From positions 1 through 35,421 of the forward strand of contig JAJQFG010000048.1 in assembly GCA_021201315.1 (NCBI GenBank): 35,421 nucleotides of DNA, read 5' to 3'. This DNA comes from Erysipelotrichaceae bacterium. GTDB lineage: Bacteria; Bacillota_I; Bacilli_A; Erysipelotrichales; Coprobacillaceae. Positions 1-10,352 of the stretch are shown one piece after another (positions within the stretch are counted from its first letter, which is position 1; every line of letters begins with the position of its first letter). The notes under the pieces are model-generated. The model was given only the letters and a program-made list of their open reading frames with translations, did no database searches and had not been told where the DNA came from. The position numbers were made by a program, and so were the translations under genes.

Positions 1-103
1 AGAATAGCAAATCATTTTAATTATTTAAATTGTCTACTTGACAAAATCACTTCACAATGGTCACTTTTATTATGATAAATTATTTGATCCTAAAAAACAT
101 TAA
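1..103. other. Non-coding left edge, probably inside the accessory element
   Basis: No reading frame is supported here. It lies downstream of the broken restriction-modification gene. The only notable item is a copy of CTTGACAAA at 37-45, the same 9-mer found twice near the guaA-proximal end of the element (7309 and 7330). No copy of the guaA 3' end is visible, so the far attachment site is not within the window. Confidence 0.4.
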
Positions 104-1051
104 TTAATTCATTTCTGTGGCAGTTTCATTAATAAATCTTATCTCTTCATCAGAAAATTTATACTTTTTAAAAAGTTGGGCGTCAATCTCATCAATACTT
201 TTGTTCCAATTAATTTTAGAATTATTTGAAAAATCTTGAACAGGAACATTAATCCATACTTTAGAATTCTTATTACCTTGTGTAACTTTCTTTGTACCAA
301 GCATAATTCTAGCAAATTTTGTCTTTATATATTTTAGTGCATTATTTGCTTCATCTTGATTTTTAAAATCACTAAAGCTTACAAAGGTTTCAGTTGCTCC
401 CAATAATGGTTCAGCAACGAAAGGTCCACTGATTACCTCGCCTAATTTGCCACTTCCATTAGAGCTAGGTAACATTAATTTATAAGAATAGAAATTTCGT
501 GGAGGATTTATGTATCTTTTATCAACATAAAGAATCACTCTTTGATTGTTCTTTCTTCCAACAATACGGATATATGTATTTTCATTACTTGGTTCTTCTT
601 CAAAAAATACTTCAGGAAACTTATCAAAACAAGATGATGATAAATAACGTGATGAGCCACCTGAAACTCTATTGGAAAATCCCTCGTTTTCTTCAAAAAA
701 TAATTTTGTATATTTATAACTTGTATTAGAATATATAATATCTGCAAAAGTTCGTTCATTAAATAATTTAACCTTTTTTATTATACTTCTAATAGTTTCA
801 TTAGGTGTAAAAGTTCCTATTATATCAAAATCTTGTGTTTTATCCCTATATGTTATAGCAACGCCACCTTTTATATCAACATTATCAAAAATATCCTTGG
901 AATTTTCAAAATATTTAATAACCTTAAAATGTTTATCATTTAACATTTTTTTATTCCATACAGAAGGAGTTTTTCCGGCGTCAAATAAAAATCTAGCTGG
1001 AGTTATTAAAGAAACCTTATCAGATATCTTCATTGATACATGATACATCAT
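104..1051 (-). pseudogene. 3' fragment of the helicase-methylase gene (C-terminal half of an Eco57I-like adenine methylase), out of frame
   Basis: This frame continues the large gene at 1020-4148 but is separated from it by a frameshift at about 1034-1048. Its start region resembles the interior of an N6-adenine methylase, the stretch after the NPPY motif: SLITPARFLFDAGKTPSVW, then a block ending IKGGVAI, typical of the Eco57I-like fold where the region past motif IV continues towards target recognition. The end is rich in charged residues and needs no further domain. The ATG codons at its 5' end arise by chance from the frame change and lack a ribosome site, so independent translation is doubtful. 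If one 7-bp repeat unit is removed, residue 7 onwards joins the upstream frame directly. Function (part of a restriction-modification enzyme) is inferred from family resemblance; the frame break is seen directly. Confidence 0.75.
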
Positions 1052-4000
1052 AAAAATGATGATAAATAGGTGGTTGCTCTCCTCTATTTTGAATATTTTC
1101 TTGATATGGTGGATTTCCTACTACAGCATCAAATTTCATTTTTTCACCTTCTTTATTCCAAGTTTTTGGATCCTTAATTTTCTTTACAACTACATCCTCA
1201 TATTCTTTGATTGCAGTAATAATATCTTCATAAGCTAAAACATTATAATTAGCTTCTTCATATCCATTTAAAGTTCTTTTAGTGATAGTCGATGCCATTT
1301 TGGTTTTACAAACAACGTATACATTATTTTTAATGGTCCTACGCCATAGTTTCTTTTCCATGGATTCATCCAACTTCTTCTCGTCACAATTAAGACATCT
1401 TTGCCTATATATTGAATAAGTAACATATAAAGGATACAAGCCTGATTTTGAATTTATTTCTAAAATTTTAGAATTTTCAGTTGCCAAAGTGTATCTTGTT
1501 ACTTCACCATGTGAAACAAAACGTGGTTGCACTAATTTACCTTCTGATTCATCAAATGTTTGATCATAAAAACACCAACCACCTAATGTATCGCTCATAT
1601 GCATGTTAACAACACGCCATGGAGTTAAAACTGTTTCTTTATCAGGATTCTTAAATGTAGCAAATAAACCAGCTATCTTTTGAACTCTTTCAGTTGGATT
1701 TAATTTGTCAGCACTTTTAGCAATATTTCTAATTTTTCTACCAGCTGCAATAAAGACATCAACATCATAATACTTCGAAAATTGTTTAAACTTTTCTTTA
1801 GTAACACCTTGAGGCATAAATTCATTCCATGATGCATCATCAACAAGGTCTAGGAAATTATCTAATGTTACATCTTTGTCAAATTCAATATCAGCACCAT
1901 AAATAAGCATTGGTATACGTATAGAAATACCTCTTAATATTTTAATAGCCTTTTTTTGTTCCTTCTTAGCAGCATTCAATTTCTCACGCGCTGCTTTTTC
2001 TTCTTCAGATAGTTCACGTTTCTTCTTATTTCTACTCTTTTCATAACGCTCCCACTCTTCATCAGTCAGCCCTTGATGATTAATATCAATAGATGTTGTC
2101 TTACCTTGAGCATTAGTAGTACCTATAATATCTCTTAAGTCATTAAATTCACTAATTTCAACTTCATTCAATCTTAAAAGATTATCATTATAAAGTTTCG
2201 TATCATCAAAACCATTTCTTACAACTTGATCAGCATGAGCCCTCTTAAGTTGTTGTAACATAGTATCAACACTATAAGCTTCCATATTAGATCCACTAAT
2301 ACCAATAACTGGACAAAAATTAAGGAATTCTCCCATTAAATATCTTCCAGTTGGATCGACAATACCTCTTCTCGTTGATAACTCGCTTGCTTGTGCAACC
2401 ATTTTTAAAGTCCTATCAGGAGCAAAATCAAATACATAACATTCATCCTTAACACGATTACCTAAAATAGCTGGTGTTTGAGCTCTAAATATGGTTTGTA
2501 AATAACTTGAGGCTGATACACTTGCTGAACCTGATAACATGAATATTGCTGTCCATGCTTTTATACTTACACCCGTAGTAAGCCTACCACAAGAAAGCGT
2601 AATTGTGTAGGTATCTTCTGGATGATTAGTAATGGCGTTTTCAACCATTTCTTTAGCATCTTGATATTGTTTTTCCTCAAAATCGTCACCCTCACCAGCA
2701 ACATTAACTATTTCAAATGCTCCAGAGCCAAATACAGGATGTTCATGTAACATTTTACTTAATGCTTTAGCTTCTTTAACACCTGGTATCATCCATAAAG
2801 AATGCCTAAAATATTTACGGTATTCTTCATTTGAGAATGGATAATTACTTTTTTCATCTTTTTTACATAACAAATCCAAAAAATGCTTAACATCATCTTT
2901 ATGAACAAAATCACCTATCGTTGCATTTTTAGGCATAACTCTCCTATCAACACTTACATCATCTGCCCAAACTCTAAAAAATTCCCTAAAATTAAAAGCC
3001 ATATCTTCAACATCATTGAAGCCTCTAATTTCTTCATCTAAATTATATGTGAAGATATTCATTTTTGGTAAATCCTCATAAGGATTTGGATCGCCATAAT
3101 GTTCTATATACCAATTAGCTTTTTCTCTTTGCTCCATTACATAATCCCATGTATATGTAGTATCTTCATCATAATCATCAAATAAATTAAATGGTGTTCC
3201 TGAAAGTTCCAAAAGTTTAGTTCGATTTTCATCTTTAATGATATGTTTCTTTACTTCTTCACCTAAAGATGTCTTTGTTCCCTCATGAGCTTCATCTATA
3301 ATAACAAGATCCCATTCAATATTAAAAACAATATCATTCTTATCAAAATTGCCACCAACGGCAGATGAACCTCTTAAATCTTGTATTGATGCAAAATAAA
3401 CATAATTAACGCCTTCTCTTTCGAGATTTTCAATTGAATCACCATGAGTAGATGATTTACTTCCATATTTGTAGTTTGAATCATCCTCATAAAATATCAT
3501 CTTGAAATCTTCAAACCAACCGTCATCAACAACGGGTCTATGTGTCATGATAATAGTCTTTTTAAAGCCCATTTCTTTAACAACTTGTAAAGCTGATACT
3601 GTTTTACCAAATCGCATTTTAGCATTCCATAACATACGATTTCTTTTCTTATCACGAAATTGTTTAATTGTTTTATTAACTGCATCTAGTTGATTAGGTC
3701 TTAAAATAACAGGACTCTTATCATATGTTATTTCTTTGTTAAATAAAGATGTTCTACCTTCTTTAACAGCCTTTATAGCATTTTGCACAGTGCTTAGATC
3801 GGTTTTAAACCATTCATTAGCATTCCTTGATTTTAATACTTTCTTAATGCCAGAGTTTGTTAATACCTTATGTACATCTGTATCTTTAAATGCAACATTA
3901 TTATTAGTTATAGCTAATTCAGTATGTAACAATTCATATTCAACTGCTGCTGTACGTGTATATTGATTTATTCTATCCTTTGCAGCCTCATTAAGATAAG

Positions 4001-4148
4001 CATGATTAGGAGTGATGATTGAAGGATCTTCATTAAACTTAACCGTCGCCATTCCAACTTTTAAGGCACCTTTATGATCATCATCATTAATCCTAAAAAC
4101 ATATATCAAAATATAAGACAATGTATTTTCAAATGTTTCCTTATTCAT
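1020..4148 (-). CDS. DEAD/DEAH helicase-methylase restriction-modification protein, truncated by frameshift
   Basis: This is a 1042-residue protein that should be about 1345. Residues 10-40 (LIYVFRI... HKGALKVGMATV) resemble a GIY-YIG/T5orf172-type nuclease domain; this is tentative. Residues 150-660 are a superfamily 2 helicase-type motor: Walker A AKMRFGKT at 176-183, DEAH at 285-288, and a SGTPFNL motif-III-like stretch. Just before the stop is NPPY (1012-1015), the catalytic motif IV of N6-adenine methylases, followed by QPPIYHHFYDVS, after which the frame is lost. The start has a GGGGAG ribosome site and overlaps the stop of the upstream methylase-like gene by 4 bases, implying coupled translation. 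The motor and possible nuclease remain, but most of the methylase C-terminal region is out of frame, so modification is probably off in this state. The restriction-modification assignment rests on motif recognition; target and class are unknown. Confidence 0.8.
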   Translation of the reverse strand: MNKETFENTLSYILIYVFRINDDDHKGALKVGMATVKFNEDPSIITPNHAYLNEAAKDRINQYTRTAAVEYELLHTELAITNNNVAFKDTDVHKVLTNSGIKKVLKSRNANEWFKTDLSTVQNAIKAVKEGRTSLFNKEITYDKSPVILRPNQLDAVNKTIKQFRDKKRNRMLWNAKMRFGKTVSALQVVKEMGFKKTIIMTHRPVVDDGWFEDFKMIFYEDDSNYKYGSKSSTHGDSIENLEREGVNYVYFASIQDLRGSSAVGGNFDKNDIVFNIEWDLVIIDEAHEGTKTSLGEEVKKHIIKDENRTKLLELSGTPFNLFDDYDEDTTYTWDYVMEQREKANWYIEHYGDPNPYEDLPKMNIFTYNLDEEIRGFNDVEDMAFNFREFFRVWADDVSVDRRVMPKNATIGDFVHKDDVKHFLDLLCKKDEKSNYPFSNEEYRKYFRHSLWMIPGVKEAKALSKMLHEHPVFGSGAFEIVNVAGEGDDFEEKQYQDAKEMVENAITNHPEDTYTITLSCGRLTTGVSIKAWTAIFMLSGSASVSASSYLQTIFRAQTPAILGNRVKDECYVFDFAPDRTLKMVAQASELSTRRGIVDPTGRYLMGEFLNFCPVIGISGSNMEAYSVDTMLQQLKRAHADQVVRNGFDDTKLYNDNLLRLNEVEISEFNDLRDIIGTTNAQGKTTSIDINHQGLTDEEWERYEKSRNKKKRELSEEEKAAREKLNAAKKEQKKAIKILRGISIRIPMLIYGADIEFDKDVTLDNFLDLVDDASWNEFMPQGVTKEKFKQFSKYYDVDVFIAAGRKIRNIAKSADKLNPTERVQKIAGLFATFKNPDKETVLTPWRVVNMHMSDTLGGWCFYDQTFDESEGKLVQPRFVSHGEVTRYTLATENSKILEINSKSGLYPLYVTYSIYRQRCLNCDEKKLDESMEKKLWRRTIKNNVYVVCKTKMASTITKRTLNGYEEANYNVLAYEDIITAIKEYEDVVVKKIKDPKTWNKEGEKMKFDAVVGNPPYQENIQNRGEQPPIYHHFYDVSCINEDI
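1034..1048. repeat. Two-copy 7-bp tandem duplication that causes the frameshift
   Basis: The plus strand reads GATACAT at 1035-1041 and again at 1042-1048, with one more matching base at 1034. On the coding (minus) strand this is ATGTATC twice. With both copies the upstream frame runs into TGA after ...DVSCINEDI. With one copy it reads Y-D-V-S-M-K-I-S-D-K and continues to the stop at 104. Seven bases is not a multiple of three, so gain or loss of a unit switches the frame. Confidence 0.9.
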
Positions 4149-5128
4149 ACTTTTCTCCCCCTTGTCGCTAAAGTCACAAATTTAACATTTTTATTCTTAT
4201 CCCAATCCTTGATTTTACAATATACACCATTATGCTTTGTTACAGCATTTCTTTTACATCCAATACATTCTTGCTTAGTAACAATCTCACCAAACAAAGT
4301 ATAATCAATAATATCCTCATTATGACAACTATATGGTATTACATATTTTAAACCATCCATTTGCCATAAATTCCATGATATAATTCTTGCAAAGTCATAT
4401 AATATTTCTTTATCTAAACTCTCACCAAACTTATAGTAATAATGTTCAATCACAGTTAACAATACATTTTCTCTAGCGATTAATAAACTATCTCCTTGAA
4501 ATTCATATCCATAAATGCTTTTTAAAGCCAATTGAGCCCATTCAATCCATTCTTCTTTATTATCAACATTTTCATTGATAATACGTAGTTTTCTATCTAA
4601 TAACCCAATTCTATCTTTAACTTCAATATAATTACCAGTAACCGTATCATAACGACTTGTAAGATAAGGTGCTTCACCACATGTTATTTCTAAGCGTATA
4701 TCCTTTACATAATCAGTCCATGTTTTGTTAGCCAATTTAGAAAAGTCAATCTTATTAGTTATTGTTTGCCAACCTTTATCAATAGATTTATTAAAAGGAG
4801 ATTCACCCTCAAACCATTGTTGATCAATTAGGTTATTTTGTTCATTACAAATCCAAGAAGGTGTAAATACTTCAGCATTATTTCTAATTCTTAAAATTTG
4901 TTCTTCTTTAGATTTAACTACACGAGGTTTTATAACATCATCATAGATATTAGCAACTAGGCCATAAAACATTTGTTCTTTAGGTTCAAATGCTTTACCT
5001 AAATGCTTATAATCATCAGTAGCCCAAATAATATTCTTGTTTGATGAATTATCCTTTAGTAAAATATTTATAAGTTCAGTACTCTTTTGTAAAATATTAT
5101 CCACATTATCACTGATAATTTTATCCAT
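4145..5128 (-). CDS. Restriction-modification methylase-like subunit (SAM-binding lobe)
   Basis: A 327-aa protein that I recognise as the type often labelled restriction endonuclease subunit M. Residues 82-95 contain NNAEVFTPSWICN, matching the EVFTP element at the N-terminus of many N6-adenine methylases. Residues 145-160 (RLEITCGEAPYLTSRY) look like motif I, the S-adenosylmethionine-binding region. LQGD-like FQGDSLLIA at 210-218 follows. No NPPY motif is present; that motif sits at the C-terminal end of the next gene, so the two polypeptides may jointly form the methylase. C-terminal cysteines (two CxxC-like pairs, CIGCK and the C near residue 300) are visible. The start has an AGGAGAGG ribosome site. 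It overlaps the downstream helicase gene by 4 bases, so the two form one operon transcribed away from the integrase. Confidence 0.72.
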   Translation of the reverse strand: MDKIISDNVDNILQKSTELINILLKDNSSNKNIIWATDDYKHLGKAFEPKEQMFYGLVANIYDDVIKPRVVKSKEEQILRIRNNAEVFTPSWICNEQNNLIDQQWFEGESPFNKSIDKGWQTITNKIDFSKLANKTWTDYVKDIRLEITCGEAPYLTSRYDTVTGNYIEVKDRIGLLDRKLRIINENVDNKEEWIEWAQLALKSIYGYEFQGDSLLIARENVLLTVIEHYYYKFGESLDKEILYDFARIISWNLWQMDGLKYVIPYSCHNEDIIDYTLFGEIVTKQECIGCKRNAVTKHNGVYCKIKDWDKNKNVKFVTLATRGRKV

Positions 5129-5160
5129 ATGACCTCTCCTATCTAGCCTAGCTAATCTAT

Positions 5161-5166
5161 ATTATA
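5161..5166 (-). promoter_or_regulatory. Candidate -10 box for the restriction-modification operon
   Basis: The minus strand reads TATAAT here, about 30 bases upstream of the methylase-like start and just after the terminator of the preceding gene. No good -35 is found (the expected position falls in the terminator T-run). A short dyad TAGC-CTA-GCTA lies between it and the ribosome site. Confidence 0.35.
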
Positions 5167-5183
5167 CTTAATTTGTAAAGATA

Positions 5184-5223
5184 AAAAAACACTTTCTTTA
5201 TGAAATTTCATAAGAAAGTGTTT
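5184..5223 (-). terminator. Intrinsic terminator between the DUF6809-like gene and the restriction-modification operon
   Basis: An 18-19 bp inverted repeat (arms AAACACTTTCTT and AAGAAAGTGTTT, extended by TATGAAA/TTTCATA with one bulged base) is followed on the minus strand by a run of seven T residues. Confidence 0.85.
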
Positions 5224-5261
5224 CTAGATCAATACTTTAATGTTTCTTTACAAAATTGTAA

Positions 5262-5492
5262 TTATTTCATAGAAGCTTCATTAAATAAATTAAATGCCTC
5301 TTTAAAACCTTCAACATAACCTTGCTTTTGTAAAGCAACACCATAAGCTAAAATTAAATCAAACAATCCTGAATCAATACCATGTTCTTCAAAAAAATCA
5401 TTAATTCGAGCTAAAACCTCATTAGCTTCTTGTGTTTGTCCACACTCTTCGCTCCATAAAAAATATAATTTTTCAATTACACTATTATTCAT
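5262..5492 (-). CDS. Small DUF6809-like protein
   Basis: A 76-aa protein beginning MNNSVIEKLYF. An in-frame ATG exists 18 bases upstream, but AAAGGAG at 5501-5507 sits between the two with an 8-base spacer to the ATG at 5492, so the shorter start is chosen. The pattern IEKLYF at the N-terminus, a charged helical middle and GYVEGFKEAFNLF near the C-terminus resembles DUF6809, a family of short helical proteins common on mobile elements and phages of Firmicutes; its function is not known. It stands between the mobilisation-like gene and a strong terminator. Confidence 0.55.
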   Translation of the reverse strand: MNNSVIEKLYFLWSEECGQTQEANEVLARINDFFEEHGIDSGLFDLILAYGVALQKQGYVEGFKEAFNLFNEASMK

Positions 5493-5556
5493 TTTTATTA
5501 CTCCTTTCATATTATAATAGTTTTAAACAATAACAACAATTCAACAATCCTGATGA

Positions 5557-5877
5557 TTATTTACTTAATCTTTCAAGGATACTAACTACATGTAACATCA
5601 TATCCAATAACTCATCATCAATCACAATACCCGAATCAATATATTCATGTAGTAATGCATTAAATGTATTAATCTCATCCCTTAAAGCCTTATATGTTCT
5701 TGTATTACCTGTAACAACAATTGTTTTATCTAAGCTTTTTTTGATCATATAATCTTGCTTTTGAAGTCCTGACAATTTAACAAGTTCATTTAGTTGATCA
5801 TGCTCTTCTGGTGACATTCTAAAAGCTGTCGTATAACAACGATGTCTTCGTTTGTTATCAAGGTTTTTGAGTGACAT
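5557..5877 (-). CDS. MobC-like relaxosome / plasmid mobilisation accessory protein
   Basis: A 106-aa basic-then-acidic protein. Residues 19-50 (FRMSPEEHDQLNELVKLSG then LQKQDYMIKK) match the ribbon-helix-helix type N-terminus of small mobilisation proteins found on integrative mobilisable elements, where they help a relaxase bind oriT; the NTRTYKALRDEINTF segment is also typical. The ATG at 5877 is chosen because AAGGAG at 5885-5890 precedes it by 7 bases; an in-frame ATG at 5895 lies upstream of that site. The ribosome site is inside the end of the integrase gene and the genes overlap by 20 bases, so translation is coupled. No relaxase is in the window, so it either lies elsewhere on the element or has been lost. 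Confidence 0.6.
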   Translation of the reverse strand: MSLKNLDNKRRHRCYTTAFRMSPEEHDQLNELVKLSGLQKQDYMIKKSLDKTIVVTGNTRTYKALRDEINTFNALLHEYIDSGIVIDDELLDMMLHVVSILERLSK

Positions 5878-6955
5878 GATGACTCTCCTTATCACAAGTA
5901 TTTAATGCATCAACAATTGCTTGTTGCTTAGTGTCAAATAAATGTGAATATTGATAAGTTATTTTCTCAGCACTATGCCCAACACGTTCACCAATTGCCA
6001 AAGGCGTAAATCCCATATTAATTAACAATGAAATGTGAGAATGTCTAAGTCCATGTATCTTAATATACTTAACACCAGATTTTTTGATAATTGCACGCCA
6101 ATGATTATCTAAAGTTGACTTATATATTGGAAAAATATAATCATTATCTTTAAGACCATACATTCTTGATAAATAATTTTGCAACTCATTTGATAATCTA
6201 TCTGGCATAGATACCTTACGTGGCTTACCACTTTTAGTCGAACCAACAACTTTGTTGCCCTCAGAATCAACAGTCCATGTTTTATTAACATAGATTATAT
6301 TATTATTGAAATCAATGTCATTCTTTATTAAACACAATGCTTCATTTACCCTTAAACCACACCAATACAATACCTCGAATACATGATAATCAATATCATA
6401 ATCCAACGCATATTCAGCAAATTGTAAGTATTCATCTAAAGTCCAATAATCATCAGACTTTAATATTTCTCTACCCATTGCACCTGCTTTACGAGCTGCA
6501 TTATAATTAAGATCATACTTATTAACTGCATAATTTAAGATTGCACTTAATTGATTATGAATGGTTTTTAGATAAACTGGTGAATATAATTTGCCAGTTT
6601 TTGTCGTTTTATTAGCAATAATGCTTTGCCATTCTAAAACCATAGGTGCATCTATACTATTCATTTTCTTGTCACCAAAATAAGGCATGATATGAGTTTG
6701 AACAATATTTTCTTTAGTACACCAAGTACTGCCTTTGACTTTTGGTTTGTAAGTTCTTCGATAAATAGCATAAAAGTCTTTAAAAGTCATTTCCATGTTG
6801 TAGGAATTGGAACGCTGATACTCAGCTTCCCAATTCTTAGCGTCCTTTTTCTTTTTAAAACCACGTTTTGTTTTTTTGTGTTCCTTACCTTCTAAATCTT
6901 TATAATATATTGACACAAAATATGTTCCACGTTTTTTATCCTTATACACAGGCAT
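5858..6955 (-). CDS. int: Tyrosine recombinase (phage/ICE-type integrase)
   Basis: A 365-aa integrase that recombines an attachment site with the chromosome. Residues 1-48 form the basic three-strand arm-binding domain (RGTYFVSIYYKD... RGFKKKKDAKNWE). Residues 55-150 are the SAM-like core-binding domain. Residues 170-350 are the catalytic domain with all expected residues: R202 (CGLRVNEAL), H301-x-x-R304 (HGLRHSHIS), H327 (VGHS) and the nucleophile Y336 (QYSHLF). Length and order are normal for Tn916-like/phage integrases. It follows the excisionase-like gene by 3 bases and overlaps the MobC-like gene. Transcription runs away from guaA. It appears intact, so the element may still be able to move. 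Confidence 0.93.
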   Translation of the reverse strand: MPVYKDKKRGTYFVSIYYKDLEGKEHKKTKRGFKKKKDAKNWEAEYQRSNSYNMEMTFKDFYAIYRRTYKPKVKGSTWCTKENIVQTHIMPYFGDKKMNSIDAPMVLEWQSIIANKTTKTGKLYSPVYLKTIHNQLSAILNYAVNKYDLNYNAARKAGAMGREILKSDDYWTLDEYLQFAEYALDYDIDYHVFEVLYWCGLRVNEALCLIKNDIDFNNNIIYVNKTWTVDSEGNKVVGSTKSGKPRKVSMPDRLSNELQNYLSRMYGLKDNDYIFPIYKSTLDNHWRAIIKKSGVKYIKIHGLRHSHISLLINMGFTPLAIGERVGHSAEKITYQYSHLFDTKQQAIVDALNTCDKESHHVTQKP

Positions 6956-6958
6956 TTT

Positions 6959-7147
6959 TTAAACCTCCTTTTTATGAGACTTATATATATGTTCCATAAA
7001 ATAATCACGATTAATACGACCTCTAATGATTATGTATCCTTCATCTTGTAGCTGATTATTTAAATCTTGAACAACTTTATACGCTTTAGCTTTAGAAACA
7101 TCAAGTATATCAGCAACTTCATCAACAGTAATAAATAGCTTTTCCAA
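6959..7147 (-). CDS. Excisionase-like helix-turn-helix protein
   Basis: A small protein of about 62 residues, EKLFITVDEVADILDVSKAKAY then a basic C-terminus GRINRDYF. The first 25 residues form a MerR/excisionase-type helix-turn-helix, as found in proteins encoded just before integrases in Firmicute elements; such proteins bend DNA and bias recombination to excision. The start is taken as TTG at 7147: GGAAAGG at 7158-7164 is then about 10 bases upstream, whereas a GTG at 7156 would touch the ribosome site. It ends 3 bases before the integrase. Confidence 0.65.
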   Translation of the reverse strand: MEKLFITVDEVADILDVSKAKAYKVVQDLNNQLQDEGYIIIRGRINRDYFMEHIYKSHKKEV

Positions 7148-7156
7148 AATTATCAC

Positions 7157-7448
7157 ACCTTTCCGATCTATTACGATAGTTATTCATTAAAGAAAACTCT
7201 TCAAGATCATTAATTGCGAAAAACTAGTTTAGTAATTTTTTTATATATTTTGTAGTTCTTTCACGATTTAAGTTTATTCTATTTTACTCAAAAAGTATAC
7301 GCCATAAACTTGACAAAAAAGCTATTTTTCTTGACAAATTACAAAAATATATAAAATATTCACTTTTTTAGGATAAATAATCATTTAATATAGAGTAATA
7401 CCAATATAGCAAACTGTGCCATAACTGTGTCACGAAACTTTTTCAACT
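7157..7448. other. Non-coding end of the element between xis and guaA
   Basis: About 290 very AT-rich bases with no supported gene. It holds two copies of CTTGACAAA 21 bp apart (7309, 7330) and a GC-richer patch at 7413-7433 with two related blocks (TGTGCCATAACTGTGTCACG). It should contain the xis-int promoter and the integrase arm-binding sites; no clear minus-strand -35/-10 pair was found. Confidence 0.45.
7309..7338 (+). repeat. Direct repeats CTTGACAAA, candidate integrase arm-type sites
   Basis: CTTGACAAA occurs at 7309-7317 and 7330-7338, exactly 21 bp (two helical turns) apart, with a third copy at 37-45 in the same orientation. Short direct repeats in helical phase near the element end are the usual form of tyrosine integrase arm sites. 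They also resemble -35 boxes, but no -10 at a good distance follows. Confidence 0.35.
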
Positions 7449-7479
7449 AAAAAAAGCACTGATTTAATCAGTGTTTTTT
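7449..7479. terminator. Intrinsic terminator after guaA
   Basis: Arms CACTGATT (7457-7464) and AATCAGTG (7466-7473) are flanked by an A-run on one side and T-run on the other, so it can work in both directions. It lies 13 bases past the guaA stop and would end the purA-guaA transcript. Confidence 0.88.
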
Positions 7480-7487
7480 GAATAGTT

Positions 7488-7512
7488 GGAATTATTCGAA
7501 TTCGATAGTTCC
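7488..7512. other. Candidate attachment site at the guaA 3' end
   Basis: The last codons of guaA and its stop form an imperfect dyad around a perfect 10-bp palindrome TCGAATTCGA (7496-7505). The guaA 3' end is an established integration site for tyrosine-integrase islands, and here an integrase module abuts it. The duplicate copy expected at the other end is outside the window, so the exact crossover is inferred. Confidence 0.45.

Positions 7513-9047: not shown

Positions 9048-10352
<1,305 letters not shown>

Follow-up and report, generated by a model that had tools for sequence, protein, structure and literature searches.

A seven-base tandem duplication splits a helicase-methylase restriction gene in an Erysipelotrichaceae bacterium and probably inactivates it

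A short perfect repeat that sits exactly where one reading frame gives way to another can be read either as a switch, by which a restriction gene is turned on and off, or as the scar of a mutation that broke it. This question is raised by one end of the window, by which we mean the whole 35,421-nucleotide stretch of an Erysipelotrichaceae contig analyzed here. The repeat lies at window positions 1034-1048, where the plus strand reads TGATACATGATACAT and the minus strand, which is the coding strand, carries two consecutive units of ATGTATC followed by a further A. The tract is 15 bp long, perfect and of period 7, amounting to 2.14 copies of the 7-mer, and the tandem duplication that the original prediction had placed at the meeting of two frames is indeed present there.

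The split gene and its setting

The features directly affected by the break are:

1034-1048, minus strand: 7-bp tandem duplication breaking the frame (ATGTATC at 1048-1042, ATGTATC at 1041-1035, A at 1034); homologues are without the extra unit
1020-4148, minus strand: upstream part of the broken gene, 1042 amino acids, with a T5orf172/GIY-YIG-like N-terminus, a ResIII (SF2) helicase and a methylase region up to NPPY
104-1051, minus strand: downstream part of the broken gene, 315 amino acids, with the end of the Eco57I methylase domain and the target-recognition/C-terminal region

The two open reading frames overlap by 32 bases around the tract. The upstream frame is out of register beyond S1036 and ends at a TGA at 1022-1020, after 1042 amino acids, and the downstream frame opens with an ATG at 1051 and continues for 315 amino acids through to position 104. 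Removal of one unit in silico gives a single open frame of 1345 amino acids, in agreement with the length of about 1345 codons that had been predicted, and the frame opens or breaks as one 7-bp unit is lost or gained. The domain matches within the gene are:

3765-3983, minus strand: T5orf172 (GIY-YIG-like nuclease) match (Pfam PF10544, 25.3 bits against a cut-off of 20)
3189-3704, minus strand: ResIII helicase domain (Pfam PF04851, E=1.6e-14)
1050-1328, minus strand: first part of the split Eco57I domain (Pfam profile positions 1-117 of 171)
1104-1115, minus strand: NPPY, catalytic motif IV of the N6-adenine methylase (residues 1012-1015), about 20 codons ahead of the duplication
887-1036, minus strand: second part of the split Eco57I domain (profile positions 120-171 of 171)

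Judged by these matches, the broken gene is a fusion of a T5orf172/GIY-YIG-like nuclease, a ResIII helicase and an N6-adenine methylase, and the source genome holds one copy of it. The Pfam Eco57I domain is divided between profile positions 117 and 120 across the junction of the two open reading frames; this division, the one-frame homologues described below and the joined frame bear out the claim that both reading frames belong to a single helicase-methylase gene. The PADLOC IIG profile matches chiefly the C-terminal part, which, from knowledge of the family, would serve in target recognition. Profile searches of solved structures returned no match.

The helicase-methylase does not stand alone. 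Its start is overlapped by 4 bp by an intact partner gene, and the same order of the two genes is seen in loci L002 and L003. The partner and the genes beyond it are:

4145-5128, minus strand: intact partner gene, 327 amino acids, methylase-like (PADLOC MTase_II PDLC03390, E=1.3e-116)
5557-5895, minus strand: NikA-like mobilization protein of the carrying element
5858-6955, minus strand: tyrosine integrase of the carrying element, adjoining guaA
7492-9036, minus strand: guaA, the neighbor of the integrase

By eye, methylase-like motifs can be picked out in both the partner (AEVFTP, EITCGEAPYL) and the helicase-methylase (TVLTP, ILEINSKSG, NPPYQ), with NPPY confined to the latter. The two proteins may form a methylase pair, possibly with one non-catalytic member. 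The integrase and the NikA-like gene (window 5557-7492) lie directly downstream of guaA, at its 3' end, and the restriction-modification (R-M) pair rides on a mobilizable integrative element that appears to use the guaA 3' end or terminator as its site; the opposite end of this element was not found. On the other side of the R-M pair, window positions 1-54 are found again at the ends of seven further contigs, with a different sequence following in each. They probably represent the end of a repeated element, probably an insertion element, which closes the contig about 50 bp past the stop of the restriction gene.

The extra unit in the light of homologous genes

The junction is crossed in a single alignment, and with no change of frame, by 119 homologous loci, and 84 of the 89 closer members possess a closed open reading frame (median 1330 codons). 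Homologues aligned across the junction read through it in one frame, and none has a conserved stop there. L027 (...QPPLYHLFYDAAMLISNRVTLITPARFLF...) and L048, which share the C-terminal type of the window gene, align gap-free to the one-unit frame (...QPPIYHHFYDVSMKISDKVSLITPARFLF...), and the spacing from YHxF to PAR is 15 residues in these same-type relatives and, for the window gene, in the one-unit frame alone. The 7-bp repeat is present at the equivalent site in 0 of the 89 homologues, where repeats of any kind are likewise absent except for a run of seven C in one metagenome bin (L080). Given the split Eco57I domain, the 119 loci that read through and the 15-residue spacing, the extra 7-bp unit is a derived insertion.

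Both halves of the gene appear otherwise undamaged, as had been proposed. Identity to L027 is 0.61 for the downstream half and 0.56 for the upstream half, and to L048 it is 0.58 and 0.56, respectively, so that conservation is no lower downstream of the break than upstream of it; compared with its same-type relatives, the downstream half changes least often at codon position 2. Relative to intact homologues the duplication is the single disrupting lesion, as expected of a recently inactivated gene or pseudogene, and because no second lesion is present in 4 kb the break is probably recent. The nearest homologue with a whole gene is only about 56-58% identical, and the direct one-unit ancestor is therefore unseen. 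No one-unit allele or near-identical DNA was found in plasmids, phages or viral contigs, the last searched by protein and with an exact 30-bp pattern beside the tract, and the three further genomes of the genus that were examined lack the gene. The family itself is large, with 543 candidate loci in one species-level collection, and it also occurs on plasmids of Enterococcus, Lactococcus, Lactobacillaceae and others.

It is very improbable that the true gene has one unit and that the second was introduced by sequencing or assembly. The assembly is a draft of 136 contigs and the site lies 1 kb from a contig end, but contig ends overlap by roughly 54 bp, far more than the 15 bp of the tract, so k-mers would span it. 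Short-read errors do not usually take the form of a clean 7-bp duplication in non-repetitive sequence.

A natural arrangement, in which the two open reading frames are separate by design or are joined by recoding, is a most unlikely account as well. Split architectures do exist in the family: in G013 (L004/L006), from the same bacterial family, the methylase/target-recognition part is a separate 342-amino-acid gene ahead of the helicase gene. The break in G013 precedes the NPPY motif, however, whereas that in the window follows it, and a stop or frame change is conserved at the site in no homologue. The ATG codons at 1051 and 1033 could permit reinitiation, which might yield the C-terminal part as a separate chain, though by eye the ATG at 1051 is without a preceding Shine-Dalgarno sequence. 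Recoding would need a +1 shift, and a prfB-like CUU-UGA site is absent. Both accounts, recoding by a programmed +1 frameshift and a natural division into two genes, were accordingly rejected, the recoding site not having been seen and the G013 split lying elsewhere.

Inactivation weighed against switching

We consider it likely that the window holds a two-gene, helicase-driven R-M system on an integrase element, and that a 7-bp tandem duplication recently knocked out the large subunit of this system, with rare reversion possible. We infer an origin by slippage, a loss of function, a recent date and rare reversibility. Strand slippage, or a comparable error of replication, would have duplicated seven bases, and the resulting +1 shift would bring translation to a stop 6 codons past the break. 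The truncated product is expected to retain the nuclease-like, helicase and NPPY parts and to lose the methylase end and the target-recognition region. Single-chain R-M enzymes are a basis for expecting restriction and modification to be lost simultaneously; since the break removes the target-recognition part from a shared methylase/nuclease chain, both activities would go together, self-cutting would be avoided and the loss would take a harmless route. Rare reversion is allowed for because the gene would be restored if one unit were deleted. The suggestion of a recent escape from a costly enzyme fits better than that of a reversible switch, though the word costly stays a supposition.

Phase variation, in which the 7-bp unit would be gained and lost by slippage often enough to turn the R-M enzyme on and off, we regard as unlikely. 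Several observations lend it plausibility. The tandem at the break is perfect, loss of one unit restores the frame and the two halves are intact. Campylobacter jejuni provides a precedent for a single-chain R-M enzyme, a G9 tract dividing cj0031/cj0032 (PMC4889913). Inversion appears to act as a switch for the two-gene family of the window in two mollicutes (below), and in L080 the C7 tract precedes the site equivalent to the window duplication by about 9 codons. Phase variation requires, however, spontaneous reversion and repeat numbers above those given by genome composition (review, PMC11868660), and the tract has just two copies and a length within the background. In a sample of 293 kb of the same genome (29% GC) we counted 13 period-7 tracts of at least 15 bp, the window's own included, a density of 4.4 per 100 kb; about 1.5 such tracts are expected when the window is modeled as a first-order Markov sequence. 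A two-copy 7-mer tandem is by itself ordinary in an AT-rich genome, and intact homologues also carry equally long two-copy 7-bp tandems that lie in frame and mark no switch. In addition, the repeat is kept in no homologue, and the second state was not found in the collections searched. It is on these grounds that the reversible on/off switch put forward in the original prediction was not upheld. Our literature search found no R-M gene described as switching through two copies of a 7-bp unit. A low-frequency version, that is, a minimal two-copy contingency locus of a helicase-driven R-M system in a commensal gut Firmicute, is similarly doubtful, and an evolved or frequent switch is unsupported.

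The position of the tract is informative in its own right. The chance of such a tract falling on the frame break is roughly 1 in 1000 (~4.4e-5 per base over some 20 bases); the coincidence of tract and break is thus unlikely to have arisen by chance, and the exact fit to the homologues adds weight. Since nothing shows flipping back and forth, an ordinary loss-of-function mutation is the most likely explanation.

Other broken members of the family point the same way. L080, from a Veillonellaceae metagenome bin, has a frameshift at its C7 run, around 9215-9230, where eight C would keep the frame; this is a possible homopolymer switch or assembly error. L026 has a frameshift about 45 codons downstream of the equivalent site, and L078 and L083 have in-frame stops. 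These scattered lesions suggest that loss is common in the family and favor ordinary, recurrent loss. We also considered the hinge from NPPY to PIYxxF as a lesion hotspot and rejected it, since two cases (the window and L080), one of them from a metagenome bin, are too few.

The wider family and known systems

The same two-gene system takes a different form in two mollicutes of one genus, G677 and G770 (about 58% protein identity; TGA = Trp in both):

L203 (G677:C2:1-9500), 2046-7004: inverted two-gene R-M locus
L230 (G770:C1:602500-611500), 1914-6911: inverted two-gene R-M locus

In G677 an inversion of about 1.8 kb breaks both the partner and the helicase-methylase. Its two ends fall within these genes, at the 10-bp arms of an inverted repeat (AATGGAAATT, L203:4762; AATTTCCATT, L203:6540), and turning the segment round in silico yields frames of 1344 and 309 codons. 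The locus of G770 is arranged likewise, and its two repeat arms have changed together, to AATGGATATT/AATATCCATT, so that the arms differ between the species and match within each; here the in silico flip again repairs both genes, which then run to 1345 and 320 codons. All four gene pieces change least often at codon position 2, and the segment has an identical orientation in both genomes. Pfam searches detected no serine recombinase in either mollicute genome, and in G677 no tyrosine recombinase scored above the cut-off. The matched arms and the pieces preserved across the divergence of G677 and G770 suggest continuing inversion rather than decay, and the mollicute cassette looks like an invertible on/off switch spanning both genes, which would make it a better switch candidate than the tract in the window.

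The observation that prompted this analysis is confirmed; inactivation by tandem duplication is well supported, and a reversible switch is possible but unsupported. If the tract marks only inactivation, this is one more R-M system lost with restriction and modification removed at once. If it were to revert often enough to be useful, repeat-number cut-offs would be overlooking a class of switches, the very short tandem duplications. The wider survey matters more, as it describes a two-gene family that is widespread, repeatedly broken by single lesions and invertible-looking in two mollicute species, and the mollicute inversion merits separate study.

Among characterized systems, the Type IIG enzyme Cj0031/Cj0032 of C. 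jejuni resembles the window gene in being a single-chain R-M enzyme in two open reading frames, with a change of repeat length inside the methylase. In Cj0031 restriction and modification switch together through a G9 homopolymer, and switching has been observed in vivo and in vitro (PMC4889913), whereas the window gene has two copies of a 7-mer together with a helicase and a partner gene. It has the nuclease and methylase in one chain (T5orf172-like and Eco57I) as in Type IIG, but its ResIII domain departs from a class that needs no ATP-driven helicase motor. In the Type ISP enzymes LlaGI and LlaBIII (PMC4872093, PMC4666363), a nuclease, an SF2 helicase-like motor, an N6-adenine methylase and target recognition follow in the same order; ResIII and Eco57I lie in one chain in L002 and in the joined window frame, which thus would unite motor, methylase and presumed target recognition as Type ISP does. 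The window protein differs at its N-terminus, where Pfam gives T5orf172 (GIY-YIG-like) and no Mrr-family nuclease, and in having a separate methylase-like partner of 312-327 amino acids. Plasmid-borne Eco57I-methylase/helicase genes of Enterococcus, Lactococcus and Lactobacillaceae belong to the same family, with 41-51% identity over 95-98% of the upstream part among the 31 best-placed records; they are annotated as one gene, and the matches reach query residues 1032-1036, which is where the window frame breaks. Finally, the frameshift scars of Mycobacterium tuberculosis (PMC8339072) are likewise cases of silencing by short frame-shifting indels that a second indel can restore, though restoration there is shown by population data and the window represents one genome.
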